This document shows, one piece after another, positions 10,691-57,320 of a DNA stretch of 64,000 nt; within the stretch, counting starts at the first letter, position 1; each line of letters starts with the position of its first letter. The notes below the pieces were generated by a model, which was given only the letters and a program-made list of their open reading frames with translations, ran no database searches and was not told the origin of the DNA. This stretch comes from Sipunculus nudus (taxonomy: Eukaryota > Annelida > Sipuncula > Golfingiida > Sipunculidae): contig CM049311.1 of NCBI GenBank assembly GCA_026874595.1, positions 7,229,676 through 7,293,675 on the forward strand, read 5' to 3'. The position numbers and the translations under genes were made by a program.

Positions 10691-10863
10691 GATAAAAAAA
10701 AATTCTGATACAGTTTGTTGTTTCCAGCCCACACACTATACTGAAACTTGATTTCATTATTGACTTTCAAAACATACAAAAGGCATTCACATTATTTATA
10801 TGGTTTATTAACATATCATACAAAATAAATAGCAGGCATGAATGTAGTTCATGATGTGATCAG

Positions 10864-10869
10864 TTTATT
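10864..10869 (-). terminator. Poly(A) signal, unit A
   Basis: AATAAA on the minus strand, about 410 bp beyond the homologous stop position of pseudogene A, in a block conserved in all six units (CAGTTTATTTAACAGTGC on the + strand). Confidence 0.5.
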
Positions 10870-11281
10870 TAACAGTGCAGAATAAATATCCACCAAATAT
10901 ACAACACAGGTGTGAGGGTGTTTATGAATACTACATACAATGAAGTCTCTATGAGAATTGAAATCTATGTCAGTATGAAAAAGGGATGAGTAGTTATATG
11001 AATTAAATGACTTGCATGGATTTGCATGGTTTACAATTCATATATTGGTACAAGGTAGTAAAGAAGACTTGGTTAACCTATGGCGTTGGTGCATCTTGTA
11101 ACAAGTGTTATATAAAGTCCATATACTGATAACTTATGGCACTCTGGAATATACTTTATGAATCACATAGAAAGATGTTAAATGGCCATGCTGGTCCATC
11201 TCATGGAGATATAGAACAAGAATACACAGAAAAAGTCGGATCAAATCAGGAAATTATGAATCACAGGTCACTATAATCACA

Positions 11282-12546
11282 TCAGTGTACTCTGGCTCTC
11301 TTGCTGGGCTGCAAGTTCTGTTGGATGAGGGAGGAGATCTCATGTACAATGACACCAGGAGCTGCCCCGCTGTTACTCGCTGTCAGGTTGTGACACAGAC
11401 TGACCAGTTGCTCCTCCAGCTTCCTCTTCTGTCTCTTTGGGCCAGTGTTTAAGCTGAGGTTACGTCTGTTGTTGAACCACGAGTTGACCTGGTTGATGGT
11501 GATGCCTCCTCGCTGTGCCATGTCTTCCTTCTCCTCCTGATTGGGGTAGGGGTGGGCTATGTTCTTGATGTACCAGCTGTCCATGATGTGTACCGCCTCC
11601 TTGCTCAGGAACTTGGGCTTGCAGCGTGACCTGGTCTTGTTAGTTGCTATTTTGGCTCTGCTGTTGACAGTCTGTAAGTTTGGTACTGACATCTCTGGCT
11701 GTCTGCTTGGTGCTGGTTTCTCAATCTCTGGCTCAGTATCTATGGCTTGTCTTCCAACCACTGGCTGTATGGGTCTGGTTGGTTTCTCTGGAGTTTGGTT
11801 GATGATAGCAGTCGGTGATAATGGTAGCAGGATGTCCTCCTCACTGAAGGATAAAGGTGACAGTGGCAGCAGATCTTCCTTGCTGATGCCAGACAGTGAC
11901 AGTGCTGTAGCGATAGTGCTGACACCTGGCTTCTGCTGACACTGTCAGGGTTGCTTGAACTGTTAACATCATTTGTTGTATTGGAACCTGCAGAGCATGT
12001 TGATTCTGAGACACTGCTGCCCTCTACTGACAGGGATGATGCAGAATGTATCCCAGAATCCCTGCTGGATGAAGGTGTGCTGCTGGAACTCTGTTTGCTG
12101 CAGGACAGATCTTGAGTGAACCTTGACCCCTAACCCCTGGTGAGCTGTGAGGGCCACTTGGGTGTAGAGTGTATGGGTGTGTGGTTCATCATCTGGGGAC
12201 TGCCGGGTACACTGGCTCCTGGGTACAGGTACTGCTGGCTGGGGTAGCTCCACTTGGGGTACATGTAGCTGCTGACTGCAGGTGAGTAGCCTGATGCTGG
12301 ATGAAGCCCTGGCTGTGCAGGTGTGGTGCTGTATCTGTACATGTCCATGTGGTGCAGTTTTGTGGTGACACCTCCATACTGTGGTGAATGGTATCCTGGG
12401 TACCCATAGTGAGGATAGTGCTGGGTACCAGGGACCTGTGCTGCCTGGTGTGAATAACTTAGGTGCTGGTGTCCCACAGATAACCCCTGTGAACTGGTCT
12501 GTGATGTTTGTCCCACAACTTGAGATGTGGCCTGAAGTAAATCCAT
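11282..12546 (-). pseudogene. TALE homeobox copy A, disrupted
   Basis: Homologous over its full length to the intact copies and starts at the same ATG (12544-12546). A CAG-to-TAG change gives a stop at 12130-12132 after 138 codons. A net +2-nt change around 11919-11925 then shifts the frame. The downstream frame (11282-11761 and a little upstream) still encodes the TALE homeodomain with its AHPYP loop and WFNNRRN recognition helix. The residue at homeodomain position 55 is Leu instead of Arg, a position that normally helps contact DNA. The promoter and TATA box are intact. The gene lies at the left edge of the array. As drawn it cannot make the full protein; sequencing error is unlikely because there are several independent lesions. 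Confidence 0.85.
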
Positions 12547-12632
12547 GATGAAGTGATGATTACTAACAACAAGAGCAGTGTTACTTGATGGTTACTCAGT
12601 CACTGTGTGATGTACTCACAACATGAGCTCAG

Positions 12633-12640
12633 TATTTATA
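12633..12640 (-). promoter_or_regulatory. TATA box, unit A
   Basis: TATAAATA on the minus strand, 87 bp from the ATG as in every other unit, preceded by the conserved upstream block rich in TGACA cores. Confidence 0.75.
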
Positions 12641-13229
12641 CTCCATTACACAAACTGACAGGTTTGACACCTGAGTTTTTGTCAACGCCTTACAAGTGAC
12701 ACTAACAAAGACATCACCATTCACAAGTTTGTCATACTCAGCTCTGGGGCCTGGGTTGAGTAAAGTTTGGATTGTTTATTACTGGGATATGTTTGTTTGC
12801 AAGTAGTGTGGGCTCTTAATGAGTTTGTTTGTGAGTAGTGTATGGGCCTGATAAAGATTTTGTTTGGGTCTGATTGGCTGAGACTGACACTATGTGGTGA
12901 GTAGCTGTACTCAGCCAACTGGAACAGGTGAGCAGGTAATGAACTCACCATTGCTTACCTGAGCAGCTGGTGCCAATTAGCTGGTTTTCTTGTGCCCAGG
13001 TATGGTTGTTGTCTGACACAGGTTTGAGTTCATATGAGGTTGAAAATGTTACATTTTGCATTTTCATTTAAACACAGAGCTTAGGGAAAACTGCTTTTAA
13101 AAAAAATGCAGACTGGAGATGTTTGAATTTCTAATTTTCAGGACTAAGAAGGCTTGGGTATGATTTTGCTATCATTTTCAATTGTAGTTATAATCAAAAT
13201 ATACCAGTTCCTTATATTCTTTAGATCAT

Positions 13230-16200
13230 TTTTAGCTCAGCTGACTGGAAGTGATATGAGCTAAAGCCATCACTCTTTGTCTGTCATCTGTCCCTCCATC
13301 CATCCAGTCATTCAATTATAGGGCACAAATCAAAACTGTTGGACCTTAATTTACATGGAGGTCCATAAAAAATCTCCCTGGACACCTGAGATTAGGTCAC
13401 TGTGACCTATATTCTCAGAGTTACAGGGCCTGTTCTTGGGCCTCAGAATAATTCTAAATTTGGCACAAAGCTCCAGTTTCTGAAAAACTAATGCATTGAT
13501 GGCTATGATTTTTCTCCATGCATGTTGATCATGGAGTGATTCTTTATTTCCTGAAGACTGGTGGCACCACCTGTATTTTTTATATAATTTTTACACATTT
13601 TTCCTCTATTTTGAGACCTTCAAATGAAGCAGTAAGGCAGTTATATGGGCACAAACCATAGCAGTCAGACCTAGAAATTTCTAATTGTTTATCCAGGAAG
13701 GTCCTTAGGAAATCTCCTCAGAAACCTCTAATATGGTCATCGTGACCTATATTTTGCAAAGTACGGGCCAAAACATGATTTTGAGCACCCTGTAAGTCAC
13801 TTGGGCACCAATTGTATCCGGTTGCCCTAGAATCTTCTAACGTAACACCCAGGGAAGTCTTGTGCAAATCTCAATGGACACCTAAAATTAATTAGGTCAT
13901 GTTAACCCATATTCTGCAAGGTACATGATAAAAACATAATTTTTAGCACCAAGGCCAATGCATAATGTTGGGCACATGACTCGTATATGAATTTGAGGTA
14001 TTGATGGAGCCACCTGCACCAACTGTTTCTGTGCAAGTGTCATTGGTCATCAGTACATTAACCCATATTTTCTCTGTAATAGCAGGAGCTAGCATCCCCA
14101 AATTTTATGCTAAATTTTTCTCATATCAAATGTGGGATTAAGTGTTTTGTGGTGCCCCCTGCATTAACTTACATTTTATGGAAAAAGCTTAAAAAACCTG
14201 TGAACATTTTCTTCCTAGAAGTTTATCAGCCAGATTGTTCAATATTTCACAGAAATAGTCCCAGAGATAAGCTCTCTCAATTTTATTCAAATGGTTTGGG
14301 TTTGATGAATTTTAGCCGATTCACAGGAATTTGAACTTGGTAATTTTGCCAAGTAAGCATACTGACATAACAATCTCAGAATTGACAAGAGCTAGCATCA
14401 CCAAGTTTTGTGCAAATGTTGGTCATATATGAAATTTGCAGTTTTTGGGCCGCCACCTACATCGACCTGTTTTTTAAGGACAAAAACCTCGTAATTTTAG
14501 TAAGCCTATTTCAAACTGAGGACTGCTAATGACTTCTTCTGCAAAACTGTTGTTTCAACTTTGCAACTTTGCACAAAAATTATTCTTAAGAGGCCTTTCT
14601 TAAGGATTACCTAAATAATTGTTGGCAGAATTATTGGACTTTTAACAATGAAAGGACTACATCTTTTATTATTCTGAACTTTTTGATAAAAATAACTAAT
14701 GGATATGTCAGCTTGAAAAAAGCATCATAGCCAAAGTCTTTTAGTATGTGTAAACAGATTTACCTACAGGCAAAGATTGAGTCTGTATCTATAAATAGCT
14801 TGGCAGACTGCCAACTATTTCAGATTTGGCAACAGGCCAAAGGTCAGTCTCGATCTATTTATAGGTTTGGCAGACTGCCAACTGTGTCAGTTTATGCAAC
14901 AGGTCAAGAGTTCACTCAGTGCAGCCAGGTACAGTTCAAGAGTTCACTCAGTGCAGCCAGGTGCAGGTCAAGAGTTCACTCAGTGCAGTAGCTGGAGATA
15001 GCAATTTGTTCTGGTTCACTCGGGGCAACTGCCTCTCTCACCTAAGCCTGGTTAGCCTAGTTCGCCTGACTCAAGAGATGTTTGATGTATTGGCCTGATA
15101 TTTTGACCTGTCCATGCATCTTATTTGGCTTAATGTTTCAAAAGACTAGTGTCACCACCTACAATGACTTTTGCACAGTGTATGTTCCTGCTTGTTTCTC
15201 AAGAGGGATTTGATATATCAGCCTGGGTATATAGGGTAAATCTATATTCTGTGAGCCACTGGCCAAAATCTTGATTTCAAGCACCTAGCAGTCAGACTTT
15301 GCACAAATGTCAACTGTTGGACTTTGAACTTTGTTACATGACATCCAGGACATCCATGGATGTCCTTGACAAGTCTCCTTTGAATCCTGAAATTAGCCAC
15401 TATGACCTATATTCTGTGAGCTAAAGGGGGAAAAAATGATTTTATCACTGCATGATCAAGTCAGATTAGCACTTATCAATACAGCTGGACCTAGAACCTT
15501 AAAATTCAAAAGGTTGTGGGCAAATCTTCTTCCACACCTGAGATTAGGTCATGATGACCCATATTCTGTGAGCTATGAGTGGAAACTTAATTTTGAGCAC
15601 CCAGAAAGTCATTCAGGGCACAAATCAAAGCTGTTGGATCTGGAAATGTCTTTCTTGATATAGAGGGAACTCATTGTACAGTCTCCTTGGACATCTGAAA
15701 TAAGGTCACAGTGACCTATATTCTGCAAGAAAATTTTAAGCAGATTTTTTGCACAGTTTGTTACAGTTGCATATGAAAATTTTAAATTTGATTAAAATCT
15801 ACCAAGGTCCTCGTAAAATTTCAATCGGAAACCTGAAATAAGGTCACTGTGGCTCTATTCTGTGAGCAGTATGAAAGAACATGATTTTATTACCCTATTA
15901 GTCAGATGGGTAAAATCATATCATTTGGACTTAATGACTTCAATTTTTTATTGAGATCCAGAGAAGGCCCTGCCCTATACCTGTATCACTGTGACCTATA
16001 TCCTGTGAGCATTTAGCACCCTGTAAGTTAGTTGAACATAACTCATAGCAGTTTCACATAGAAACTGAGCATCTAGGAAGTTCCTGATAAAATCATCTTT
16101 GAAACCCAAAATAAGGTCACTGTATCCTATTTTCTTAGGCATATGGCCAATAAGCATTATTTTGTGCACTCTGAAAGTCAATCTATCCATTGTTGAAGGT

Positions 16201-16952: not shown

Positions 16953-16958
16953 TTTATT
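16953..16958 (-). terminator. Poly(A) signal, gene B
   Basis: AATAAA on the minus strand about 298 bp past the stop of gene B, with a second one at 16893-16898. It lies in the conserved 3' block. Confidence 0.55.
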
Positions 16959-17255: not shown

Positions 17256-18518
17256 TCAGTATATTCTGGCTCTCTTGCTGGGCTGCAAGTTCTGTTGGAT
17301 GAGGGAGGAGATCTGATGTAAAATGACACCAGGAGCTGCCCCGCTGTTACTCGCTGTCAAGTTGTGACACAGACTGACCAGTTGCTCCTCCAGCTTCCTC
17401 TTCTGTCTCTTGGGGCCAGTGTTGAAGCTGCGGTTACGTCTGTTGTTGAACCACGAGTTGACCTGGTTGTTGGTGATGCCTCCTCGCTGTGCCATGTCTT
17501 CCTTCTCCTCCTGACTGGGGTAGGGGTTGGCTATGTTCTTGATGTACCAGCTGTCCATGATGTGTACGGCCTCCTTGCTCAGGAACTTAGGCTTGCAGCG
17601 TGACCTGGTCTTGTTAGTTGCTATTTTGGCTCTGCTGTTAACAGTCTGTAAGTTTGGTACTGACATCTCTGGCTGTCTGCTTGGTGCTGGTTTCTCAATC
17701 TCTGGCTCAGTTTCTATGGCTTGTCTTCCAACCACTGGCTGTATGGGTCTGGTTGGTTTCTCTGGAGTTTGGTTGATGATAGCAGTCGGTGATAATGGTA
17801 GCAGGATGTCCTCCTCACTGAAGGATAAAGGTGACAGTGGCAGCAGATCTTCCTTGCTGATGCCAGACAGTGACAGTGCTGTAGCGATAGTGTTTTCCCG
17901 GCTTCTGCTGACACAGTCAGGGCTGCTTGAACTGTTAACATCATTTGTTGTATTGGAACCTGCAGAGCATGTTGATTCTGAGACACTGCTGCCCTCTACT
18001 GACAGGGATGATGCAGAATGTATCCCAGAATCCCTGCTGGATGAAGGTGTGCTGCTGGGACTCTGTTTGCTGCAGGAAAGATCTTGAGTGAACCTTGACC
18101 CCTGACCCCTGGTGAGCTGTGAGGGCCACTTGGGTGTAGAGTGTATGGGTGTGTGGTACATCATCTGGGGACTGCTGGGTACACTGGCTCCTAGGTACAG
18201 GTACTGCTGGCTGGGGTAGCTCCACTTGGGGTACATGTAGCTGCCGACTGCAGGTGAGTAGCCTGATGCTGGATGAAGCCCTGGCTGTGCAGGTGTGGTG
18301 CTGTATCTGTACATGTCCATGTGGTGCAGTCCTGTGGTGACACCTCCATACTGTGGTGAATGGTATCCTGGGTACCCATAGTGAGGATAGTGCTGGGTAC
18401 CAGGGACCGGTGCTGCCCTCTGTGGATAACTTAGGTACTGGTGTCCCACAGATAACCCCTGTGAACTGGTCTGTGATGTTTGTCCCACAACTTGAGATGT
18501 GGCCTGAAGTAAATCCAT
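17256..18518 (-). CDS. Divergent TALE homeobox transcription factor, copy B (420 aa, intronless)
   Basis: A single open exon runs from ATG (18516-18518) to stop. Residues 1-140 are rich in Tyr, Pro, Ser and Gln, with a HYPHYGYPGYHSPQYGG stretch. Residues 140-300 are Ser- and acid-rich and low in complexity, typical of an activation domain. The homeodomain spans about 304-363. It is TALE type, shown by the extra residues and NPYP loop between helices 1 and 2, and its recognition helix is NSWFNNRRNR with the DNA-contacting Asn51, Arg53 and Arg55. A basic KRQKRK stretch just after it and PSKRAR near the C-terminus could be nuclear signals. It should be a nuclear DNA-binding regulator. It resembles the spiralian TALE (SPILE) class more than PBX, MEIS, TGIF or IRX. 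The short, intronless, TATA-driven, multi-copy design suggests a rapidly expressed early embryonic gene; this is inference. Confidence 0.85.
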   Translation of the reverse strand: MDLLQATSQVVGQTSQTSSQGLSVGHQYLSYPQRAAPVPGTQHYPHYGYPGYHSPQYGGVTTGLHHMDMYRYSTTPAQPGLHPASGYSPAVGSYMYPKWSYPSQQYLYLGASVPSSPQMMYHTPIHSTPKWPSQLTRGQGSRFTQDLSCSKQSPSSTPSSSRDSGIHSASSLSVEGSSVSESTCSAGSNTTNDVNSSSSPDCVSRSRENTIATALSLSGISKEDLLPLSPLSFSEEDILLPLSPTAIINQTPEKPTRPIQPVVGRQAIETEPEIEKPAPSRQPEMSVPNLQTVNSRAKIATNKTRSRCKPKFLSKEAVHIMDSWYIKNIANPYPSQEEKEDMAQRGGITNNQVNSWFNNRRNRSFNTGPKRQKRKLEEQLVSLCHNLTASNSGAAPGVILHQISSLIQQNLQPSKRARIY

Positions 18519-18604
18519 GATGAAGTGATGATTACTAACAACAAGAGCAGTGTTACTTGATGGTTACTCAGTCACTGTGTGATGTACTCACAACATGAGC
18601 TCAG

Positions 18605-18612
18605 TATTTATA
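18605..18612 (-). promoter_or_regulatory. TATA box and TGACA-rich upstream block, gene B
   Basis: TATAAATA lies 87 bp upstream of the ATG. Just upstream are five TGACA/TGTCA cores within about 80 bp (18628, 18637, 18652, 18669 and 18702), the core bound by MEIS and TGIF type TALE proteins. One of them overlaps TGACACCT, a T-box-like half-site. Upstream homology between units continues for about 600 bp. Confidence 0.75.
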
Positions 18613-19872
18613 CTCCATTACACAAACTGACAGGTTTGACACCTGAGTTTTTGTCAACGCCTTACAAGTGACACTAACAAAGACATCACCATTCACAAGT
18701 TTGTCATACTCAGCTCTGGGGCCTGGGTTGAGTAAAGTTTGTGATTGTTTATTACTGGGATACGTTTGTTTGCAGGTAGTGTGGGCTCTTAATGAGTTTG
18801 TTTGTGAGTAATGACGTGGCCTGATAAAGAGTTTGTTTGGGTCTGATTGGCTGAGACTGACATTATGTGGTGAGTAGCTGTACTCAGCCAACTGGAACAG
18901 GAGAGCAGATAATGAACTCACCAATGCTTGCCTGAGCAGCTGGTGCCAATTAGCTGGTTTTCTTGTGCCCAAGTATGGTTATTGTCTGACACTGGTTTGA
19001 GTTCATATGAGGGTGAAAATGTTACATTTTGCATTTTCATTTAAACACAGAGCTTAAGGGAAAACTGCTTTAAAAAAAATGCAGAACTGGAGATGTTTGA
19101 ATTTCTAATTTTCAGGACTGAGAAGGCTTTGGTATGATTTTGCTATCATTTTCAATCGTAGTTATAATCAAAATATACCAGTTCCTTATATTCTTTAGAT
19201 CATTTTTAGCTCAGCTGACTGGAAGTGATATGAGCTAAAGCCCTCACTCTTTGTCTGTCATCTGTCTCTCCATCCATCCAGTCATTCAATTATAGGGCAC
19301 AAATCAAAACCGTTGGACCTTAATTTACATGAAGGGCCATAAAAAATCTCCCTGGACACCTGAGATTAGGTCACCTTGACCTATATTCTCAGAGTTACGG
19401 GGCCTGTTATTGGGCCTCGGAATAATTCTAAATTTGGCACAAAGCTTCAGTTTCTGAATAACTAATGCATTGATGGCTATGATTTTTTTCCATGCATGTT
19501 GATCATGGAGTGATTCTTTAGTTCCTGAAGACTGATGGTGCCACCTGTATTTTTTATATAATTTTTACACATTTTCCCTCTATTTTGAGACCTTCAAATG
19601 AAGCAGTAAGGCAGTTTTATGGGCACAAACCATAGCGGTCAGACCTAGAAATTTCTAATTGTTTATCCAGGAAGGTCCTTAGGAAATCTCCTCAGAAACC
19701 TCTAATATGGTCATGGTGACCTATATTTTGCAAAGTACGGGCCAAAAACATGATTTGAGCACACTGTAAGTCACTTGGGCACCAATTGTATCCGGTTGCC
19801 CTAGGATCTTCTAATGTAATACCCAGGGAAGTCTTGTGCAAATCTCAATGGACACCTAAAATTAATTAGGTC

Positions 19873-20151
19873 ATGTTAACCCATATTCTGCAAGGTACAT
19901 GATAAAAACATAATTTTTAGCACCAAGGCCAATGCATAATGTTGGGCACATGACTCGTATATGAATTTTAGGTATTGATGGAGCCACCTGCATCAACTGT
20001 TTCTGTACAAGTGTCGGTCATCAGTACAATTACCCATAATTTCTCAGTAATAGCAGGAGCTAGCATCCCCTAATTTTATGCTAAATTTTTCACATGTCAA
20101 ATGTTGTGGGATTAAGTGTTTTGTGGTGCCCCCTGCATTAACTTACATTTA
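19873..20151 (+). repeat. 279-bp flanking duplication, left copy
   Basis: Matches 24541-24819 with two substitutions and no indel. The other units have this stretch only once. The right edge abuts the end of the retroelement. Confidence 0.9.
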
Positions 20152-20335
20152 TGACACACACACCACTCACACTAACACAATGAAATTGGGTACGCCGTGA
20201 TATATGGATGAAATGGGCCCAAAGGGCCATGATATTTATTGGTTCCAAAAATTTGGAACTTGATAACACCAAAGAATATTTTTAATTTATGAAGTAGTAA
20301 ATGATTTTCCTAGGTATGGTGGAGTCAAAACCGCC
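20146..20335 (-). repeat. Split direct repeat of the retroelement, outer copy (B2-like)
   Basis: 190 bp, identical to 20822-21011 except for two substitutions. It includes GACACACACACCACTCACAC and a GGGCCCAAAGGGCC block. The first five bases (CATTT) could equally belong to the host. Confidence 0.9.
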
Positions 20336-20821
20336 TATTAATACAACTGAGTCCATTTGGACAACTGAGTCAACACATGATACAACTATTACATGTAAAG
20401 ATAAGTCCATTGAGTGAGCCTCACATAAGGCACAAAGTTCTTTTTATAAACATATATGATTATGCATCTATAATGAATGTAGCTATACTAAAGTAAGAAA
20501 AAATTATTTGCACAAATAAAGCTTTGAAACCACAAGGTGGATGAAGGGGTGGATGGCGGGTTTCAAATGGCGAAGCAGGCAGCACTGAGAGGTCAGATTT
20601 TGTAAACACGGCTTTATATATTGACCCGGGTTCGGCCCGGGCTGCATGGATTCCTGATCGCTGATTGGTTGCAGGCCAAATAGTGAAAACTCGTCAGGAT
20701 GAGATATCGCGAGATTGGCCTGGATAGATAGTGAGGCCACGTGGGTTCTGTTATGGTAAACATACTTGAAAACGCGGTGCGTGCAAAATAAAACTCCTTT
20801 CACCCGGAGGACGAAAGTAGG

Positions 20822-21011
20822 CATTTATGACACACACACCACTCACACTAACACAATGAAATTGGGTATGCCGTGATATATGGATGAAATGGGCCCAAAG
20901 GGCCATGATATTTATTGGTTCCAAAAATTTGGAACTTGATAACACCAAAGAATATTTTTAATTTATGAAGTAGTAAATGATTTTCCTAGGTATGGTGGGG
21001 TCAAAACCGCC
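20822..21011 (-). repeat. Split direct repeat of the retroelement, inner copy (B1-like)
   Basis: Second copy of the 190-bp repeat, in direct orientation, 486 bp from the outer copy. Confidence 0.9.
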
Positions 21012-21169
21012 ACAGGGAACGCAGTGACCCCCCACCGTACCCCCAAGGTTGATTGCTGCCTGCTTCAACAATAAATTTAAATAAACTGAAAGTACGGAAA
21101 TTGTATTGGAGTTATGACCCAACCCCAGCTTGCTGCACTACCAATAGATACGCTTAATAGAGTTGGTTG

Positions 21170-21965
21170 GAACCGAGCTCACCTGAGACATCGGAAACCC
21201 ACCATTACAATCTGACACACCTGAAATATTCATAACATAAATACTGGGATAAGATACCGCATGGAAATTCAATTGCCTTGAGAGATTACATGTAACCTAT
21301 TATATTAACCCAGCTCACTAGAGACATGGGAATCCCCCTATAAAATCTAAAGCATATCTAAAAACCTTAACCACATACAGTAGAAAAATACTAAGTGGAG
21401 ACCAAGCTCACTTGAGACACTGGAAACCATTAGCAGACACAATTATATACAATGACATGTATGACTACAGTAGAGTACACGACTAGGTACCGTGTGCCCA
21501 TTTATTCGACCCAGCTCACTTGAGACATGGGAAACCTACTGTTGAATCTAAAGCACATTAACTGACATAACCTGTCTACCAGCTAAAAGAACAATGTGGT
21601 GACCAAGCTCACTTGAGACATTGGAAACCATTAGCTTACACAAATATATACAATGAGATATATAGGACTAAAGTAAGTTAGATAACTAGGTACTGGTAAC
21701 CTATTTTATTCAACCCAGCTCACTTGAGACATGGGAAAACTGACAACTAAATAGCTAACATCACTATAAATGAAAAATCGATGTTTAGGCAATGGTAAAT
21801 CAATCTAATTCAGCCAAGCTCACATGAGACATTTGCTGTGACCTAAGATTAAGATAGCAATTCTAAGGAAACCTAAAGCCCAAGTGAGGCCCTTGCGTCC
21901 TCTTGTTAATAATTAATCTATACTACCTTGCTCATCACTGCTGGGCTCACATGAGACACCAGCAT
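21170..21965. repeat. Eight spaced CTCACnTGAGAC palindromic motifs in the retroelement 3' region
   Basis: The core (C)AGCTCACTTGAGACATGGGA and variants recurs near 21175, 21307, 21405, 21510, 21605, 21716, 21815 and 21948, about every 90-130 bp. Each core is a near palindrome (CTCA-nn-TGAG). The intervening sequence is partly repeated as well. No ORF is present, so this is untranslated sequence between the recombinase ORF and the split repeats. Confidence 0.75.
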
Positions 21966-22005
21966 GATGTAGGGCTCAGGGTTTGACTAGTAGTTAATGG
22001 GCTGG

Positions 22006-22918
22006 TCAATGAGCAAGATGGAGCCTTATGTACTTCTGAAAGGCGTTAGACTTCCAGCGTCCCATAATACGAATTTGAGTATCAGTTTTGCCATGTGCAG
22101 CAGCATCTGTAGCTGCACCGATCCTAAAACTGTGGCCCTTAAACTTCTTGGTATCAAGTTGACAGAATAGTAGATCTCGTGCCAACTGCTCGTTAAATTG
22201 GGGTCTTGTTATGGGTGTGCCAGAGGGGGAGGCAAACAGTGGCCCGGGTGTATTGCCACGGGCTGAGCAAAATTTTGACAGGAATGACACAGGGCATGGG
22301 GCACCCTGTTTTGACTGGATGTAAACCAACTGGCACTGACCCAAAGGCATGTTTTTTGAATGGCGCAGGGTTATGCTGGCCTGGTATGGGCTATCGGAAA
22401 TTGACACGTCGTTTATTTGTACGACTTGTAAGGCATTGCAAAGTTTTGTTGGGATTAGCTCACCCAGTCTGAACCAACCATAAAAACTGGTGAGGTAGAT
22501 AGCTGAAAACATCAGTTTCTGGTAGTTTGATTGTAAGGTATGCTGCAGAGCTGACACCAAGCGGTGAAGTATATTGGGGGTGATGGGATATCTAAGATCA
22601 ACTGAGGGGGTGAGGCGTTTTGCACCTGCAATTAGCCGTTTGATAGCTTCGGTTGAGGTGGGGTCTGGCTTATTGGCCAGCTTATGCGGGAATGCGATGG
22701 CGGAGCAAAGGGTAGCTAGAGTGCCACCTGAACAGCCGCCCCGGAAACGCTCTGACAGAAAGAGAAAAAACTACCCATGGAGAGACAGGGATCTTTGCCC
22801 AATTTGGTTCGTCATGTTGAAGACAAAATTGTTTTAGCGCCTGCCATACCCGGGCATAAGCCTTCGTGGTTGAGGTGGAAATGCTGTTCGCTATTAGGAG
22901 CTTCCCGAGCTGGATCAA
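22006..22918 (-). pseudogene. Tyrosine recombinase of the retroelement, frameshifted
   Basis: The C-terminal part (22006-22560 and upstream in the same frame) is the catalytic domain. It has Arg in the FYGWFRLGEL motif, a HSFRIGAATDAA motif (the conserved HxxR) and Tyr in KYIRLHLAH near the end, the nucleophile. The N-terminal core-binding part (STSTTKAYARVWQALKQF) is in another frame from 22918 down to about 22770. The two frames meet at a T6 run on the coding strand (about 22766-22771), where one base appears to be missing. A homopolymer sequencing error is a fair alternative. Its job would be to insert a circular cDNA into the target without long target duplications. Confidence 0.8.
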
Positions 22919-24540: not shown

Positions 24541-24819
24541 ATGTTAACCCATATTCTGCAAGGTACATGATAAAAACATAATTTTTAGCACCAAGGCCAA
24601 TGCATAATGTTGGGCACATGACTCATATATGAATTTTAGGTATTGATGGAGCCACCTGCATCAACTGTTTCTGTACAAGTGTCGGTCATCAGTACAATTA
24701 CCCATAATTTCTCAGTAATAGCAGGAGCTAGCATCCCCAAATTTTATGCTAAATTTTTCACATGTCAAATGTTGTGGGATTAAGTGTTTTGTGGTGCCCC
24801 CTGCATTAACTTACATTTA
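24541..24819 (+). repeat. 279-bp flanking duplication, right copy
   Basis: Starts exactly where the truncated RT frame ends and continues without a break into normal unit spacer sequence after 24819. Confidence 0.9.
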
Positions 24820-29643: not shown

Positions 29644-30777
29644 TCAGTGTATTCTGGCTCTCTTGCTGGGCTGCAAGTTCTGTTGGATGAGGGAGGAGAT
29701 CTGATGTACAATGACACCAGGAGCTGCCCCGCTGTTACTCGCTGTCAGGTTGTGACACAGACTGACCAGTTGCTCCTCCAGCTTCCTCTTCTGTCTCTTT
29801 GGGCCAGTGTTGAAGCTGCGGTTACGTCTGTTGTTGAACCAGACGAACTTAGGCTTGCACCGTGACCTGGTCTTGTTAGTTGCTATTTTGGCTCTGCTGT
29901 TAACAGTCTGTAAGTTTGGCACTGACATCTTTGGCTGTCTGCTTGGTGCTGGTTTCTCAATCTCTGGCTCAGTATCTATGGCTTGTCTTCCAACCACTGG
30001 CTGTATGGGTCTGGTTGGTTTCTCTGGAGTTTGGTTGATGATAGCAGTCGGTGATAATGGTAGCAGGATGTCCTCCTCACTGAAGGATAAATGTGACAGA
30101 GGCAGCAGATCTTCCTTGCTGATGCCAGACAGTGACAGTGCTGAAGCGATAGTGTTTTCCCGGCTTCTGCTGACACAGTCAGGGGTGCTTGAACTGTTAA
30201 CATCATTTGTTGTATTGGAACCTGCAGAGCATGTTGATTCTGAGACACTGCTGCCCTCTACTGACAGGGATGATGCAGAATGTATCCCAGAATCCCTGCT
30301 GGATGAGGGTGTGCTGCTGGAACTCTGTTTGCTGCAGGACAGATCTTGAGTGAAACTTGACCCCTGACCCCTGGTGAGCTGTGAGGGCCACTTGGGTGTA
30401 GAGTGTATGGGTGTGTGGTACATCATCTGGGGACTGCTGGGTACACTGGCTCCTGGGTACAGGTACTGCTGGCTGGGGTAGCTCCACTTGTACATGAAGC
30501 TGCTGACTGCAGGTGAGTAGCCTGATGCTGGATGAAGCCCTGGCTGTGCAGGTGTGGTGCTGTATCTGTACATGTCCATGTGGTGCAGTCCTGTGGTGAC
30601 ACCTCCATACTGTGGTGAATGGTATCCTGGGTACCCATAGTGAGGATAGTGCTGGGTACCAGGGACTGGTGCTGCCCCCTGTGGATAACTTAGGTACTGG
30701 TGTCCCACAGATAACCCCTGTGAACTGGTCTGTGATGTTTGTCCCACAACTTGAGATGTGGCCTGTAGTAAATCCAT
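29644..30777 (-). CDS. TALE homeobox paralogue C lacking the homeodomain (377 aa)
   Basis: Same start, promoter, N-terminal region and C-terminal tail as the intact copies. A net 126-nt in-frame deletion near 29840 joins KPKF (about residue 311) through one Val to WFNNRRN. Helix 1, the TALE loop, helix 2 and the start of helix 3 are gone; only the last part of the recognition helix and the basic tail remain. The junction shows a few bases of filler. The frame is otherwise open. The product should not bind DNA as a homeodomain but keeps the putative activation region and nuclear signals, so it could act as a competitor of its siblings, or be a decaying copy. It shares a one-codon deletion (YKW for YPKW) and other substitutions with copy D. 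Confidence 0.85.
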   Translation of the reverse strand: MDLLQATSQVVGQTSQTSSQGLSVGHQYLSYPQGAAPVPGTQHYPHYGYPGYHSPQYGGVTTGLHHMDMYRYSTTPAQPGLHPASGYSPAVSSFMYKWSYPSQQYLYPGASVPSSPQMMYHTPIHSTPKWPSQLTRGQGSSFTQDLSCSKQSSSSTPSSSRDSGIHSASSLSVEGSSVSESTCSAGSNTTNDVNSSSTPDCVSRSRENTIASALSLSGISKEDLLPLSHLSFSEEDILLPLSPTAIINQTPEKPTRPIQPVVGRQAIDTEPEIEKPAPSRQPKMSVPNLQTVNSRAKIATNKTRSRCKPKFVWFNNRRNRSFNTGPKRQKRKLEEQLVSLCHNLTASNSGAAPGVIVHQISSLIQQNLQPSKRARIH

Positions 30778-30863: not shown

Positions 30864-30871
30864 TATTTATA
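30864..30871 (-). promoter_or_regulatory. TATA box and upstream block, gene C
   Basis: TATAAATA 87 bp from the ATG; the TGACA-rich upstream block is preserved. The proximal sequence (GTTAGATGTACTCACAAGATG on the + strand) is shared only with unit D. Confidence 0.75.
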
Positions 30872-31453
30872 CTCCATTACACAAACTGACAGGTTTGACA
30901 CCTGAGTTTTTGTCAACACCTTACAAGTGACACTAACAAAGACATCACCATTCACAAGTTTGTCATACTCAGCTCTGGGTCCTGGGTTGAGTAAAGTTTG
31001 TGTTTGTTTATTACTGGGATAAGTTTGTTTGCAAGTAGTGTGGGCTCTTAATGAGTTTGTTTGTGAGTAGTGTATGGGCCTGATAAAGAGTTTGTTTGGG
31101 TCTGATTGGCTGAGACTGACACTATGTGGTGAGTAGCTGTACCAAGCCAACTGGAACAGGTTAGCAGGTAATGAACTGCTTGCCTGAGCAGCTGGTGCCA
31201 ATTAGCTGGTTTTCTTGTGCCCAAGTATGGTTATTGTCTGACACAGGTTTGAGTTCATATGAGGTTGAAAATGTTACATTTTGCATTTTCATTTAAACAC
31301 AGAGCTTAAGGGAAAACTGCTTTAAAAAATAGCAGAACTGGAGATGTTTGAATTTCTAATTTTCAGGACTAAGAAGGCTTGGGTATGATTTTGCTATCAT
31401 TTTCAATTGTAGTTATAATCAAAATATACCAGTTCCTTATATTCTTTAGATCA

Positions 31454-36950: not shown

Positions 36951-38210
36951 TCAGTGTATTCTGGCTCTCTTGCTGGGCTGCAAGTTCTGTTGGATGAGGG
37001 AGGAGATCTCATGTACAATGACACCAGGAGCTGCCCCGCTGTTACTCGCTGTCAGGTTGTGACACAGACTGACCAGTTGCTCCTCCAGCTTCCTCTTCTG
37101 TCTCTTGGGGCCAGTGTTGAAGCTGCGGTTACGTCTGTTGTTGAACCACGAGTTGACCTGGTTGATGGTGATGCCTCCTCGCTGTGCCATGTTTTCCTTC
37201 TCCTCCTGACTGGGGTAGGGGTTGGCTATGTTCTTGATGTACCAGCTGTCCATGATGTGTACTGCCTCCTTGCTCAAGAACTTAGGCTTGCACCGTGACC
37301 TGGTCTTGTTAGTTGCTATTTTGGCTCTGCTGTTAACAGTCTGTAAGTTTGGTACTGACATCTCTGGCTGTCTGCTTGGTGCTGGTTTCTCAGTCTCTGG
37401 CTCAGTATCTATGGCTTGTCTTCCAACCACTGGCTGTATGGGTCTGGTTGGTTTCTCTGGAGTTTGGTTGATGATAGCAGTTGGTGATAATGGTAGCAGG
37501 ATGTCCTCCTCACTGAAGGATAAATGTGACAGAGGCAGCAGATCTTCCTTGCTGATGCCAGACAGTGACAGTGCTGAAGCGATAGTGTTTTCCCGGCTTC
37601 TGTTGACACAGTCAGGGGTGCTTGAACTGTTAACATCATTTGTTGTATTGGAACCTGCAGAGCATGTTGATTCTGAGACACTGCTGCCCTCTACTGACAG
37701 GGATGATGCAGAATGTATCCCAGAATCCCTGCTGGATGAGGGTGTGCTGCTGGAACTCTGTTTGCTGCAGGACAGATCTTGAGTGAACCTTGACCCCTGA
37801 CCCCTGGTGAGCTGTGAGGGCCACTTGGGTGTAGAGTGTATGGGTGTGTGGTACATCATCTGGGGACTGCTGGGTACACTGGCTCCTGGGTACAGGTACT
37901 GCTGGCTGGGGTAGCTCCACTTGTACATGTAGCTGCTGACTGCAGGTGAGTAGCCTGATGCTGGATGAAGCCCTGGCTGTGCAGGTGTGGTGCTGTATCT
38001 GTACATGTCCATGTGGTGCAGTCCTGTGGTGACACCTCCATACTGTGGTGAATGGTATCCTGGGTACCCATAGTGAGGATAGTGCTGGGTACCAGGGACT
38101 GGTGCTGCCCTCTGTGGATAACTTAGGTACTGGTGTCCCACAGATAACCCCTGTGAACTGGTCTGTGATGTTTGTCCCACAACTTGAGATGTGGCCTGAA
38201 GTAAATCCAT
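36951..38210 (-). CDS. Divergent TALE homeobox transcription factor, copy D (419 aa)
   Basis: Intact single-exon ORF with complete N-terminal, Ser-rich and homeodomain regions. The homeodomain, at about 303-362, has the ANPYP loop and NSWFNNRRNR. It is one residue shorter than B, E and F because Pro is missing in the YMYKWSYP segment, as in C. Distinctive residues are ENMAQRGG in helix 2 and SHLSFSEED in the acidic region. It is the closest full-length relative of the homeodomain-less copy C and shows what C has lost. Confidence 0.85.
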   Translation of the reverse strand: MDLLQATSQVVGQTSQTSSQGLSVGHQYLSYPQRAAPVPGTQHYPHYGYPGYHSPQYGGVTTGLHHMDMYRYSTTPAQPGLHPASGYSPAVSSYMYKWSYPSQQYLYPGASVPSSPQMMYHTPIHSTPKWPSQLTRGQGSRFTQDLSCSKQSSSSTPSSSRDSGIHSASSLSVEGSSVSESTCSAGSNTTNDVNSSSTPDCVNRSRENTIASALSLSGISKEDLLPLSHLSFSEEDILLPLSPTAIINQTPEKPTRPIQPVVGRQAIDTEPETEKPAPSRQPEMSVPNLQTVNSRAKIATNKTRSRCKPKFLSKEAVHIMDSWYIKNIANPYPSQEEKENMAQRGGITINQVNSWFNNRRNRSFNTGPKRQKRKLEEQLVSLCHNLTASNSGAAPGVIVHEISSLIQQNLQPSKRARIH

Positions 38211-38296: not shown

Positions 38297-38304
38297 TATT
38301 TATA
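38297..38304 (-). promoter_or_regulatory. TATA box and upstream block, gene D
   Basis: TATAAATA 87 bp from the ATG. The upstream TGACA cluster is preserved, and the proximal sequence matches unit C. Confidence 0.75.
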
Positions 38305-40141
38305 CTCCATTACACAAACTGACAGGTTTGACACCTGAGTTTTTGTCAACACCTTACAAGTGACACTAACAAAGACATCACCATTCACAAGTTTGTCATA
38401 CTCAACTCTGGGTCCTGGGTTGAGTAAAGTTTGTGTTTGTTTATTACTGGGATAAGTTTGTTTGCAAGTAGTGTGGGTTCTTAATGAGTTTGTTTGTGAG
38501 TAGTGTATGGGCCTGATAAAGAGTTTGTTTGGGTCTGATTGGCTGAGACTGACACTATGTGGTGAGTAGCTGTACCAAGCCAACTGGAACAGGTTAGCAG
38601 GTAATGAACTGCTTGCCTGAGCAGCTGGTGCCAATTAGCTGGTTTTCTTGTGCCCAAGTATGGTTATTGTCTGACACAGGTTGGAGTTCATATGAGGTTG
38701 AAAATGTTACATTTTGCATTTTCATTTAAACACAGAGCTTAAGGGAAAACTGCTTTAAAAAAAAGCAGAACTGGAGATGTTTGAATTTCCAATTTTCAGG
38801 ACTAAGAAGGCTTGGGTATGATTTTGCTATCATTTTCAATTGTAGTTATAATCAAAATATACCAGTTCCTTATATTCTTTAGATCATTTTTAGCTCACCT
38901 GACTGGAAGTGATATGAGCTAAAGCCATTTCTCTTTGTCTGTCATCTGTCCCTCCATCCATCCAGTCATTCAATTATAGGGCACAAATCAAAACTGTTGG
39001 ACCTTAATTTACATGGAGGTCCATAAAAAATCTCCCTGGACACCTGAGATTAGGTCACTGTGACCTATATTCTCAGAGTTAGAGGCCCTGTTATTGGGCC
39101 TCACAATAATTCTAAATTTGGCACAAAGCTCCAGTTTCTGAATAACTAATGCATTGATGGCTATGATTTTTTTCCATGCATGTTGATCATGGAGTGATTC
39201 TTTATTTCCTGAAGACTGGTGGCGCCACCTGTATTTTTATATAATTTTAACACATTTTTTTCTATTTTGAGACTTTCAAATGAAGCAGTAAGGCAGTTAA
39301 ATGGGCACAAACCATAGCAATCAGACCTAAAAATTTCTAATTGTTTATCCAGGAAGGTCTTTAGGAAATCTCCTCAGAAACCTCTAATATGGTCATGGTG
39401 ACCTACATTTTGCAAAGTACGGGCCAAAAACATGATTTTGAGCACCCTGTAAGTCACTTGGGCACCAACTGTATCCGGTTGCCCTAGAATCTTCTAACGT
39501 AACACCCAGGGAAGTCTTGTGCAAATCTCAATGGACACCTAAAATTAATTAGGTCATGTTAACCCTATTCTGCAAGGAACATGATAAAAACATAATTTTT
39601 AGCACCAAGGCCAATGCATAATGTTGGGCACATGACTCGTATATGAATTTGAGGTATTGATGGAGCCACCTGCATCAACTGTTTCTGTACAAGTGTCATT
39701 GTTCATCAGTACATTAACCCATAATTTCTCAGTAATAGCAGGAGCTAGCATCCCCAAATTTTATGCTAAATTTTTCACATATCAAATGTTGTGGGATTAA
39801 GTGTTTTGTGGTGCCCCCTGCATTAACTTACATTTTTTAGGAAAAAGCTTAAAAAACCTGTGAACATTTTCTTCTTAGAAGTTTATCAGCCAGATTGTTC
39901 AATATTTCACAGAAAGAGTCCCAGATTTAAAGCTCTCTCAAGTTTGTTCAAATGGTTTGGGTTTGATGAATTTTAGCCGATTCACAGGAATTTGAACTTG
40001 GTAATTTTGCCAAGTAAGCATACTGACATAACAATCTCAGAATTGACAAGAGCTAGCATCACCAAGTTTTGTGCAAATGTTGGTCATATGATTCATATAT
40101 GAAATTTGCAGTTTTTGTGCGGCCACCTACATCCACCTGTT

Positions 40142-47279: not shown

Positions 47280-48542
47280 TCAGTGTATTCTGGCTCTCTT
47301 GCTGGGCTGCAAGTTCTGTTGGATGAGGGAGGAGATCTCATGTACAATGACACCGGGAGCTGCCCCGCTGTTACTCACTGTCAGGTTGTGACACAGACTG
47401 ACCAGTTGCTCCTCCAGCTTCCTCTTCTGTCTCTTGGGGCCAGTGTTGAAGCTGCGGTTACGTCTGTTGTTGAACCACGAGTTGACCTGGTTGTTGGTGA
47501 TGCCTCCTCGCTGTGCCATGTCTTCCTTCTCCTCCTGACTGGGGTAGGGGTGGGCTATGTTCTTGATGTACCAGCTGTCCATGATGTGTACGGCCTCCTT
47601 GCTCAGGAACTTGGGCTTGCAGCGTGACCTGGTCTTGTTAGTTGCTATTTTGGCTCTGCTGTTTACAGTCTGTAAGTTTGGTACTGACATCTCTGGCTGT
47701 CTGCTTGGTGCTGGTTTCTCAGTCTCTGGCTCAGTATCTATGGCTTGTCTTCCAACCACTGGCTGTATGGGTCTGGTTGGTTTCTCTGGAGTTTGGTTGA
47801 TGATAGCAGTCGGTGATAATGGTAGCAGGATGTCCTCCTCACTGAAGGATAAAGGTGACAGTGGCAGCAGATCTTCCTTGCTGATGCCAGACAGTGACAG
47901 TGCTGTAGCGATAGTGTTTTCCTGGCTTCTGCTGACACAGTCAGGGCTGCTTGCACTGTTAACATCATTTGTTGTATTGGAACCTGCAGAGCAAGTTGAT
48001 TCTGAGACACTGCTGCCCTCTACTGACAGGGATGATGCAGAATGTATCCCAGAATCCCTGCTGGATGAAAATGTGCTGCTGGAACTCTGTTTGCTGCAGG
48101 ACAGATCTTGAGTGAACCTTGACCCCTGACCCCTGGTGAGCTGTGAGGGCCACTTGGGTGTAGAGTGTATGGGTGTGTGGTACATCATCTGGGGACTGCT
48201 GGGTACACTGGCTCCTGGGTACAGGTACTGCTGGCTGGGGTAGCTCCACTTGGGGTACATGTAGCTGCTGACTGCAGGTGAGTAGCCTGATGCTGGATGA
48301 AGCCCTGGCTGTGCAGGTGTGGTGCTGTATCTGTACATGTCCATGTGGTGCAGTCCTGTGGTGACACCTCCATACTGTGGTGAATGGTATCCTGGGTACC
48401 CATAGTGAGGATAGTGCTGGGTACCAGGGACTGGTGCTGCCCTCTGTGGATAACTTAGGTACTGGTGTCCCACAGATAACCCCTGTGAACTGGTCTGTGA
48501 TGTTTGTCCCACAACTTGAGATGTGGCCTGAAGTAAATCCAT
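47280..48542 (-). CDS. Divergent TALE homeobox transcription factor, copy E (420 aa)
   Basis: Intact single-exon ORF. The homeodomain has the AHPYP loop, where B and D have ANPYP, and the invariant NSWFNNRRNR. Differences from B and F are scattered single substitutions, for example NSASSPDC and SRSQENT in the Ser-rich region, with no indels. This near identity to B and F over 1.26 kb suggests recent duplication or gene conversion. Spacer and indel patterns pair this unit with B. Confidence 0.85.
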   Translation of the reverse strand: MDLLQATSQVVGQTSQTSSQGLSVGHQYLSYPQRAAPVPGTQHYPHYGYPGYHSPQYGGVTTGLHHMDMYRYSTTPAQPGLHPASGYSPAVSSYMYPKWSYPSQQYLYPGASVPSSPQMMYHTPIHSTPKWPSQLTRGQGSRFTQDLSCSKQSSSSTFSSSRDSGIHSASSLSVEGSSVSESTCSAGSNTTNDVNSASSPDCVSRSQENTIATALSLSGISKEDLLPLSPLSFSEEDILLPLSPTAIINQTPEKPTRPIQPVVGRQAIDTEPETEKPAPSRQPEMSVPNLQTVNSRAKIATNKTRSRCKPKFLSKEAVHIMDSWYIKNIAHPYPSQEEKEDMAQRGGITNNQVNSWFNNRRNRSFNTGPKRQKRKLEEQLVSLCHNLTVSNSGAAPGVIVHEISSLIQQNLQPSKRARIH

Positions 48543-48628
48543 GATGAAGTGATGATTACTAACAACAAGAGCAGTGTTACTTGATGGTTACTCAGTCACT
48601 GTGTGATGTACTCACAACATGAGCTCAG

Positions 48629-48636
48629 TATTTATA
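48629..48636 (-). promoter_or_regulatory. TATA box and upstream block, gene E
   Basis: TATAAATA 87 bp from the ATG, with the conserved TGACA-rich block upstream. Confidence 0.75.
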
Positions 48637-49435
48637 CTCCATTACACAAACTGACAGGTTTGACACCTGAGTTTTTGTCAACACCTTACAAGTGACACTA
48701 ACAAAGACATCACCATTCACAAGTTTGTCATACTCAGCTCTGGGGCCTGGGTTGAGTAAAGTTTGTGATTGTCTATTACTGGGATAAGTTTGTTTGCAGG
48801 TAGTGTGGGCTCTTAATGAGTTTGTTTGTGAGTAGTGTGGCCTGATAAAGAGTTTGTTTGGGTCTGATTGGCTGAGACTGACATTATGTGGTGAGTAGCT
48901 GTACTCAGCCAACTGGAACAGGAGAGCAGGTAATGAACTCACCAATGCTTGCCTGAGCAGCTGGTGCCAATTAGCTGGTTTTCTTGTGCCCAAGTATGGT
49001 TATTGTCTGACACTGGTTTGAGTTCATATGAGGGTGAAAATGTTACATATTGCATTTTCATTTAAACACAGAGCTTAAGGGAAAACTGCTTTAAAAAAAA
49101 TGCAGAACTGGAGATGTTTGAATTTCTTATTTTCAGGACTGAGAAGGCTTTGGTATGATTTTTCTATCATTTTCAATAGTAGTTATAATCAAAATATACC
49201 AGTTCCTTATATTCTTTAGATCATTTTTAGCTCAGCTGACTGGAAGTGATATGAGCTAAAGCCCTCACTCTTTGTCTGTCATCTGTCTCTCCATCCATCC
49301 AGTCATTCAATTATAGGGCACAAATCAAAACCGTTGGACCTTAATTTACATGAAGGTCCATAAAAAATCTCCCTGGACACCTGAGATTAGGTCACCTTGA
49401 CCTATATTCTCAGAGTTACAGGGCCTGTTATTGGG

Positions 49436-55317: not shown

Positions 55318-55323
55318 TTTATT
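55318..55323 (-). terminator. Poly(A) signal, gene F
   Basis: AATAAA on the minus strand in the conserved 3' block, about 300 bp past the stop. Confidence 0.55.
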
Positions 55324-55621
55324 TAACAGTGCATAATAAATATCCACCATATATACAATAGAGGTGTGAGAGTGTTTATGAATACTACATACAATGAAGT
55401 CTCTTTGTGAATTGAAATACTATGTCAATATGAAAAAGGGATGAGTATAGTTTCATGCATGAAATGATTTGCGTGGATTTGCTTGGTACAAGTTAGTAAA
55501 GAAGACTTGTTTAACTCATGGCATTGGTGCATCTTGTAACAAGTGTTATAAATAGTCCATATACTGATATCTTATGGCACTCTGGAATATGGTTTATAAA
55601 TCACACATCTCTATAATCTGA

Positions 55622-56884
55622 TCAGTGTATTCTGGCTCTCTTGCTGGGCTGCAAGTTCTGTTGGATGAGGGAGGAGATCTCATGTACAAAGACACCTGGA
55701 GCTGCCCCGCTGTTACTCGCTGTCAGGTTGTGACACAGACTGACCAGTTGCTCCTCCAGCTTCCTCTTCTGTCTCTTTGGGCCAGTGTTGAAGCTGCGGT
55801 TACGTCTGTTGTTGAACCACGAGTTGACCTGGTTGTTGGTGATGCCTCCTCGCTGTGCCATGTCTTCCTTCTCCTCCTGACTGGGGTAGGGGTGGGCTAT
55901 GTTCTTGATGTACCAGCTGTCCATGATGTGTACGGCCTCCTTGCTCAGGAACTTAGGCTTGCAGCGTGACCTGGTCTTGTTAGTTGCTATTTTGGCCCTG
56001 CTGTTAACAGTCTGTAAGTTTGGTACTGACATCTCTGGCTGTCTGCTTGGTGCTGGTTTCTCAATCTCTGGCTCAGTTTCTATGTCTTGTCTTCCAACCA
56101 CTGGCTGTATGGGTCTGGTTGGTTTCTCTGGAGTTTGGTTGATGATAGCAGTCGGTGATAATGGTAGCAGGATGTCCTCCTCACTGAAGGATAAAGGTGA
56201 CAGTGGCAGCAGATCTTCCTTGCTGATGCCAGACAGTGACAGTGCTGTAGCGATAGTGTTTTCCCGGCTTCTGCTGACACAGTCAGGGCTGCTTGAACTG
56301 TTAACATCATTTGTTGTATTGGAACCTGCAGAGCATGTTGATTCTGAGACACTGCTGCCCTCTACTGACAGGGATGATGCAGAATGTATCCCAGAATCCC
56401 TGCTGGATGAGGGTGTGCTGCTGGGACTCTGTTTGCTGCAGGACAGATCTTGAGTGAACCTTGACCCCTGACCCCTGGTGAGCTGTGAGGGCCACTTGGG
56501 TGTAGAGTGTATGGGTGTGTGGTACATCATCTGGGGACTGCTGGGTACACTGGCTCCTGGGTACAGGTACTGCTGGCTGGGGTAGCTCCACTTGGGGTAC
56601 ATGTAGCTGCTGACTGCAGGTGAGTAGCCTGATGCTGGATGAAGCCCTGGCTGTGCAGGTGTGGTGCTGTATCTGTACATGTCCATGTGGTGCAGTCCTG
56701 TGGTGACACCTCCATACTGTGGTGAATGGTATCCTGGGTACCCATAGTGAGGATAGTGCTGGGTACCAGGGACCTGTGCTGCCCGGTCTGAATAACTTAG
56801 GTACTGGTGTCCCACAGATAACCCCTGTGAACTGGTCTGTGATGTTTGTCCCACAACTTGAGATGTGGCCTGAAGTAAATCCAT
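55622..56884 (-). CDS. Divergent TALE homeobox transcription factor, copy F (420 aa)
   Basis: Intact single-exon ORF. N-terminal residues YSDRAAQVPG resemble pseudogene A (YSHQAAQVPG), whereas B-E have YPQ[R/G]AAPVPG, which suggests the two outer copies keep an older state. The homeodomain has the AHPYP loop and NSWFNNRRNR, unchanged at the key contacts. Other substitutions include VGRQDIETEP before the homeodomain and GVFVHEISS in the conserved C-terminal tail. It is the last complete copy in the window. Confidence 0.85.
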   Translation of the reverse strand: MDLLQATSQVVGQTSQTSSQGLSVGHQYLSYSDRAAQVPGTQHYPHYGYPGYHSPQYGGVTTGLHHMDMYRYSTTPAQPGLHPASGYSPAVSSYMYPKWSYPSQQYLYPGASVPSSPQMMYHTPIHSTPKWPSQLTRGQGSRFTQDLSCSKQSPSSTPSSSRDSGIHSASSLSVEGSSVSESTCSAGSNTTNDVNSSSSPDCVSRSRENTIATALSLSGISKEDLLPLSPLSFSEEDILLPLSPTAIINQTPEKPTRPIQPVVGRQDIETEPEIEKPAPSRQPEMSVPNLQTVNSRAKIATNKTRSRCKPKFLSKEAVHIMDSWYIKNIAHPYPSQEEKEDMAQRGGITNNQVNSWFNNRRNRSFNTGPKRQKRKLEEQLVSLCHNLTASNSGAAPGVFVHEISSLIQQNLQPSKRARIH

Positions 56885-56970
56885 GATGAAGTGATGATTA
56901 CTAACAACAAGAGCAGTGTTACTTGATGGTTACTCATTCACTGTGTGATGTACTCACAACATGAGCTCAT

Positions 56971-56978
56971 TATTTATA
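56971..56978 (-). promoter_or_regulatory. TATA box and upstream block, gene F
   Basis: TATAAATA 87 bp from the ATG. One of the five upstream TGACA cores is lost here (TGAAACC at about 57003). Conserved upstream sequence runs to about 57320, where a 3.1-kb insertion separates it from the rest of the unit. Confidence 0.7.
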
Positions 56979-57320
56979 CTCCATTACACAAACTGACAGG
57001 TTTGAAACCTGAGTTTTTGTCAACACCTTACAAGTGACACTAACAAAGACATCACCATTCACAAGTTTGTCATACTCAGCTCTGGTGCCTGGGTTGAGTA
57101 AAGTTTGTGTTTGTTTATTACTGGGATAAGTTTGTTTGCAAGTAGTGTGGGCTCTTAATGAGTTTGTTTGTGAGTAGTGTGGCCTGATAAAGAATTTGTT
57201 TGGCTCTGATTGGCTTAGACTGACACTATGTGGTGAGTAGCTGTACTCAGCCAACTGGAACAGGTGAGCAGGTAATGAACTCACAAATGCTTGCCTGAGC
57301 AGCTGGTGCCAATCAGCTGG

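Follow-up and report, generated by a model that had tools for sequence, protein, structure and literature searches.

A window of 64,000 bp (C6:7229676-7293675, within a 1.43-Gb assembly) contained one TALE homeobox gene in six head-to-tail copies on the minus strand, at positions 11282-56884 of the window, and the assembled array amounted to eight copies over ~70 kb, five of them intact. Our preferred explanation, to which we give a probability of roughly 60%, is that this array consists of a lineage-specific SPILE-like TALE gene, which was spread as blocks of DNA carrying both gene and promoter, and that the copies likely raise the dose of one early-embryo regulator. We infer three parts of this explanation: membership (E- or D-like) in SPILE, expression in the early embryo, and the explanation of the copies by dosage.

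Copies of the gene in the array

The reading of open reading frames (ORFs) and the alignment of the copies confirmed the initial annotation in that the window carried six minus-strand copies, four of which were intact. Copies 2 (17256..18518), 5 (47280..48542), and 6 (55622..56884) were each an intact single-exon ORF of 420 amino acids, and copy 4 (36951..38210) one of 419 amino acids. Copy 1 (11282..12546) was broken by one in-frame stop (codon 139) and a frameshift (frame lost near codon 205). Copy 3 (29644..30777) retained an open frame of 377 amino acids, from which an in-frame deletion took out most of the homeodomain (~43 residues). Six was, on the other hand, not the number of the whole array because the window edge cuts it: to the right, on the same contig, we found copy 7, which was intact, and copy 8, in which the first ~30 codons lay ~1.5 kb away from the remainder and the C-terminal end was altered. 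The start-to-start spacing of the window copies was 6.0, 12.3, 7.4, 10.3, and 8.3 kb. Their description as near-identical was appropriate: 95-99% identity in ungapped 300-bp blocks, and 73-77% where an indel interrupted the match. AATAAA was present 298-413 nucleotides past the last codon in all six.

The gene had also been described as intronless. This held for the coding sequence, which was one open frame at the level of DNA, and a TATA box (see below), if used, would leave little space for an intron in the 5' untranslated region; the gene is thus apparently intronless, as judged from DNA.

Gene and promoter blocks across the genome

Approximately 150 bp before the ATG were conserved across 15 aligned loci of the family. 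When the 1.43-Gb assembly was searched with a 35-bp promoter core containing the TATA box (≤3 mismatches), 21 occurrences were detected, all upstream of a family gene or gene piece, and the reversed control gave 0. BLAST with a 166-bp block also found 21 places, with the C5 locus added but one on C2 not detected: 22 loci combined. The core was therefore kept in 21 of 22 loci, the remaining one (C5) showing the wider block by BLAST only. In the window, the core was located on the minus strand at 12633..12667, 18605..18639, 30864..30898, 38297..38331, 48629..48663, and 56971..57005 (copies 1 to 6, respectively), with the TATA box starting 94 nucleotides before the ATG in every copy, in agreement with the proposal that each copy has its own promoter.

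The family comprised 22 promoter-bearing loci on five chromosomes, and 15 of these had an intact ORF by our own reading. Full or partial members other than the array were found at C6:27.6 Mb (three), C12:4.06 Mb (one, start codon lost), C1:8.76-8.80 Mb (four), C1:11.51 Mb (N-terminal pieces), C2:88.6 Mb (three), C2:8.84 Mb (one), and C5:70.98 Mb (degenerate). The seven loci without an intact ORF were window copies 1 and 3, array copy 8, one at C6:27.59 Mb (two stops), and those on C12, at C1:11.51 Mb, and on C5; an additional N-terminal piece (C1:11.5135 Mb) lacked its own promoter. Identity to copy 6 across fifteen relatives was 69-97%. Since the promoter core precedes a family gene at every genomic occurrence, the arrangement indicates that the family spread as DNA blocks carrying gene and promoter. 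Retroposition was ruled out as the mode of spread because the 22 loci retain the upstream promoter block. As a separate observation, two of the C1 genes (L009 and L011; C1:8.76-8.79 Mb) were followed, after the stop codon, by a minisatellite repeating the final codons of the coding sequence.

The putative proximal regulatory region of copy 6 (56885..57284, minus strand) contained 10 ACTCA/TGAGT motifs, one CTGTCA site, and the TATA box, and the matching stretch of the other five window copies contained 8-10 of the ACTCA/TGAGT motifs. In seven tested promoters of the family, this motif occurred 7-12 times per 400 bp versus ~2.4 expected from first-order Markov controls (P ≤ 0.0095). Averaged over seven array copies, its density per 200 bp was 5.1 and 4.0 in the two bins that make up -400 to -1, compared with 0-1.0 outside this region and 0.5 window-wide. 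A CTGTCA/TGACAG site, which we take to be of the TALE type, was present in all seven tested promoters, and no site of the type that we assume to be TCF/LEF was found in these seven. Only some promoters were sampled, here and below, and those taken from one array do not count as independent. Searching the whole genome for ACTCA clusters gave no useful information, with 1141 matches versus 826 in the reversed control; many of the matches listed lay in satellites.

Protein

Residue numbers from Pfam, structure, the alignment of 16 proteins, and AlphaFold are one below those of the 420-amino acid protein (the queries started at residue 2). The TALE homeodomain of copy 6 spanned approximately residues 307-367, and Pfam Homeobox_KN (PF05920) matched residues 323-362 at 8.5e-13, which passes the cut-off. 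The three-residue loop extension (PYP) and the KN-type profile both assigned the protein to the TALE class, and the closest solved relatives by sequence and fold were PKNOX1, Exd/Pbx, and Meis. Position 50 of the homeodomain, numbered by reference to the invariant WF-N motif, was Asn (N357) in 16 of 16 aligned proteins; I, A, or G at this position is stated in PMC5322547 to be diagnostic of TALE genes. The 55 residues following the homeodomain were strongly conserved. In the N-terminal part, DSGIHS (D162-S167) was invariant in 16 of 16 aligned members; of the surrounding 80 columns, 26% were invariant in 7 representatives. In the AlphaFold model, the predicted local distance difference test (pLDDT) was 84-91 for the homeodomain blocks, lower for the later helices, and below 50 for residues 1-309. 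The predicted layout is, therefore, a disordered N-terminus with conserved patches, an Asn50 TALE homeodomain, and a conserved C-terminus that is probably helical.

Placement among TALE genes

A Hox gene on C12 carried KLTGP at homeodomain positions 64-68 (Lox5), given in PMC5431905 as the Lox5 signature of lophotrochozoans and flatworms. The genome is thus lophotrochozoan and lies within the spiralian/lophotrochozoan range of SPILE genes. As for narrower markers, the Egg_lysin family gave 0 matches, with none in the controls either, and 18 matches to tyrosinase were not diagnostic. A homeodomain tree was constructed from 31 rows: 23 divergent ones of this genome (11 A/C-like among them) and 8 canonical ones. 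Four canonical rows were PDB entries named by the database, and two others (L114 and L111) are presumably Irx-like and Mkx-like, respectively. The 23 divergent rows split from the 8 canonical rows with moderate support (83/88), and the window family was on the same side of this branch as the A/C-, B-, and D-like genes of this genome. The family was accordingly not assigned to Pbx, Meis, Pknox, Tgif, Irx, or Mkx, and the proposal that the gene is a divergent TALE gene was upheld. Within the divergent rows, the A/C-like ones formed a strong clade (100/99).

Three features of the tree weigh against this placement. The support of 83/88 is below the strong mark of the tree program, the window family was the divergent group adjoining the canonical rows in the best tree (74/88), and the family itself was recovered as a group with only 49/20. 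Constraint tests on the homeodomains gave p values of the approximately unbiased test (p-AU) of 0.35 for the window family joined with L020, a gene at C12:10.99 Mb, and 0.34 for the window family joined with A/C, and so did not separate these two groupings.

The A/C-like proteins had in common a conserved region upstream of the homeodomain, which we take to be PADRE by its position and length rather than by PADRE sequence. No PADRE-like region was found in the window family by a profile comparison with 13 A/C-like proteins, which aligned the homeodomain only; the same test aligned only the homeodomain of the B-like gene L019, and so can overlook PADRE in the modified form that B genes have. 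L019 had two homeodomains, a landmark of SPILE B (TALE-IV) (PMC8524836, PMC6118893). On the other hand, L020, the gene most similar to the window family among the other divergent genes found, aligned to part of the PADRE-like region. Its similarity to the family (53% over 80 residues) covered the homeodomain and the C-terminal extension that follows, and L020 looks D-like.

The family resembled SPILE E (TALE-III) in having a divergent TALE homeodomain and, within the limits of the profile test, no PADRE domain, a likeness of description and not of sequence. It differed in copy number: SPILE E was single-copy in five species (PMC8524836, Table 1), an observation in those species rather than a definition, versus 22 loci here. 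The relationship to SPILE D (TALE-XVIII) runs through L020, which has a partial PADRE-like region, as D genes do, and the shared C-terminal extension, whereas the window family has no such region and a long N-terminus of its own. These results suggested that the family is likely an expanded PADRE-less E- or D-like branch of SPILE, the comparison with published SPILE genes being by description. Its assignment to SPILE in the initial annotation was thus substantiated in part: the gene was divergent, lophotrochozoan, and outside canonical TALE, but the PADRE-like region of three of the four SPILE clades was absent.

A/C-like arrays and known tandem SPILE genes

The expected large expansion of TALE genes was evident in this lophotrochozoan genome. 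At least 63 A/C-like homeodomain matches, including damaged ones, were found: 19 on C3, 19 on C15, 14 at C6:5.3 Mb, 5 on C11, and 6 elsewhere. Limpet and chiton provide precedents for near-identical SPILE genes in tandem: PMC8524836 describes eight near-identical tandem homeodomains in limpet (Lottia) and seven on one scaffold in chiton, all of the A/C clade, and 4 to 12 A/C genes in bivalves. The window array is similar to these in its divergent TALE homeodomain, lophotrochozoan origin, near-identical tandem copies, and lineage-specific expansion. It differs in that most A/C genes have a PADRE domain, which has no counterpart in the window family, and this genome has its own A/C-like arrays at other loci. 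No comparable PADRE-less array was named in the titles and abstract openings of the SPILE and TALE literature searched, a search that most subscription papers lay outside, and one may be in print.

Two of the A/C-like arrays carried TCF/LEF-type sites in their promoters (3-4 each within 400 bp; Markov expectation, 0.07-0.08): C6:5.31-5.39 Mb (5 of 14 members tested) and C3:59.196-59.262 Mb (L143-L160; 1 of 19 tested). All six of these promoters were also enriched in ACTCA/TGAGT. Neither TCF nor ACTCA excess was found in the promoters of the C15 genes, L019, or L020. Three tested C11 promoters had no ACTCA enrichment, and TCF-type sites numbered 3 in one and 1 in each of the other two (P 0.09). 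The promoter at C1:97.9 Mb had 2 TCF-type sites, and those of L103 and L105 had none. The results for C15, L019, L020, C11, L103, and L105 count against a shared promoter code. Separately, genes at C15:15.60-15.73 Mb (L127, L129, and L135) had a site resembling a splice acceptor at a point where the reading frame of the C6:5.3-Mb genes continues, and so an intron may have been gained in the former or lost in the latter.

Dose, timing, and selection

In the proposed mechanism, each working copy would be a short single-exon unit of the TATA type encoding a transcription factor, and several near-identical copies under one promoter type would most likely give the early embryo a higher dose of one regulator; short early cell cycles may penalise long genes and favour such units. 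One exon, a TATA box, several copies, and a cluster of promoter motifs fit fast zygotic output. Early high-rate genes of C. elegans are similarly shorter, have fewer introns, are more often recent duplicates, and show enrichment in clusters (PMC10446496). The parallel with med/end and other high-rate early transcription factor genes (short, intron-poor, recently duplicated, and clustered) is one of gene design and not of kinship, the proteins being unrelated. Single core promoter motifs contribute only slightly in the early genes of C. elegans (PMC10446496).

Reported timing weighs against the zygotic part of this explanation. According to PMC8524836, SPILE D and E genes are maternally expressed in mussel and limpet, the two species described, which would argue against zygotic output, and A/C and B genes are zygotic from 4-16-cell stages. 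The copies may then serve to load the egg with transcript instead of fast zygotic transcription, an alternative that we regard as unlikely, but as the most serious one. It would be in keeping with the resemblance of the window family to PADRE-less SPILE E and with the D-like appearance of L020, its closest other divergent gene, which retains part of the PADRE-like region. However, the single-exon TATA structure speaks against it, as does an ACTCA/TGAGT cluster that the family has in common with promoters of two A/C-like arrays, whose clade is the one reported to be zygotic.

An early-embryonic dosage gene should also be distinguished from passive copy-number drift, in which a recombination-prone region generates duplicates by ordinary birth and death, with no selection on dosage and perhaps with expression elsewhere than in the early embryo. 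Damage in three of eight array copies, as ordinary birth-and-death of duplicates predicts, and in seven of 22 family loci accords with drift, as do the satellite and retroelement in the spacers; and the nonsynonymous/synonymous per-site ratio of the N-terminal part within the array was 0.74, not different from 1 (p 0.41). For the five intact array copies, however, the pooled ratio was 0.49 (p 0.016) and that of the homeodomain and C-terminus 0.22 (p 0.002); these parts are under purifying selection. Furthermore, the promoter core was retained in 21 of 22 loci, and other multi-copy clusters of the family, located on C1 and C2, gave ratios of 0.31 and 0.34 (four paralogues each). We regard drift as unlikely, slightly more so than the maternal alternative.

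Of the ten possible pairings of intact array copies, the six computed diverged by 0.025-0.036 at synonymous sites; copy 6 compared with two C2 genes gave 0.575-0.586. The flanks of the array copies diverged by 2.7-6.2% per bin upstream to -440 and by 2.9-4.3% downstream to ~+2050. Gene conversion restricted to the coding sequence was superfluous as an explanation because synonymous divergence among the array copies was similar to that of the flanks.

A more far-reaching proposal is that this new expanded SPILE branch encodes a protein removed via the β-catenin route, and that two SPILE sets read β-catenin/GSK3 oppositely: the A/C-like arrays would respond by transcription through TCF/LEF-type sites, and the window family by protein stability through DSGIHS. 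DSGIHS is identical to the β-catenin phosphodegron (PMC12907494), and its function as a degron in the window family is a guess from this identity. If true, the proposal would provide a direct molecular link from the animal-vegetal β-catenin signal to SPILE patterning; we consider it improbable. Least credible of all is an assembly artefact, with a single copy or two haplotypes placed end to end, since the 95-99% identity in most coding blocks would be compatible with it, but the eight copies, spacing of 6.0 to 12.3 kb with different insertions in the window, three copies each damaged differently, and similar clusters on other chromosomes are not.

SPILE genes have a part in specifying early limpet blastomeres, which raises the questions of their regulation and of the cause of their repeated multiplication. 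The present genome is an unusually clear case: it combines a family whose promoter is conserved across five chromosomes with separate A/C-like arrays, two of which have TCF-type sites. It gives testable predictions on dosage, upstream control, and protein turnover, and the window family may extend the known SPILE expansions to a PADRE-less branch.

Spacers and other observations

A reverse-transcriptase element, which we take to be DIRS/Ngaro-like, occupied positions 20152-24540 of an array spacer and had a weak tyrosine-recombinase match (E 0.05). It was flanked by 279-bp direct repeats (19873-20151 and 24541-24819; 277 of 279 identical), and three other array units matched the repeat stretch once. 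Eight copies of a 338-bp satellite at 40222-42915 were ~69-78% similar to spacer sequence of the array itself (e.g. 13229-13753); the satellite thus seems to have arisen from spacer DNA. Degenerate 11-bp tandem repeats of the TATATG type were found at 1641-1919 and 5466-5773 of the window.

Elsewhere in the assembly, bacterial-looking COX1-type genes gave nine near-equal matches on eight small contigs (C60-C89) and one on C123. That on C123 looked bacterial in translation, and that on C60 had 52-58% identity to the 80 records listed among 582, outside which closer ones may lie. These genes point to cobiont or contaminant genomes in the assembly. The Lox5 gene was among nine Hox-like homeobox matches at C12:56.36-58.27 Mb, all on the minus strand and spanning ~1.9 Mb.

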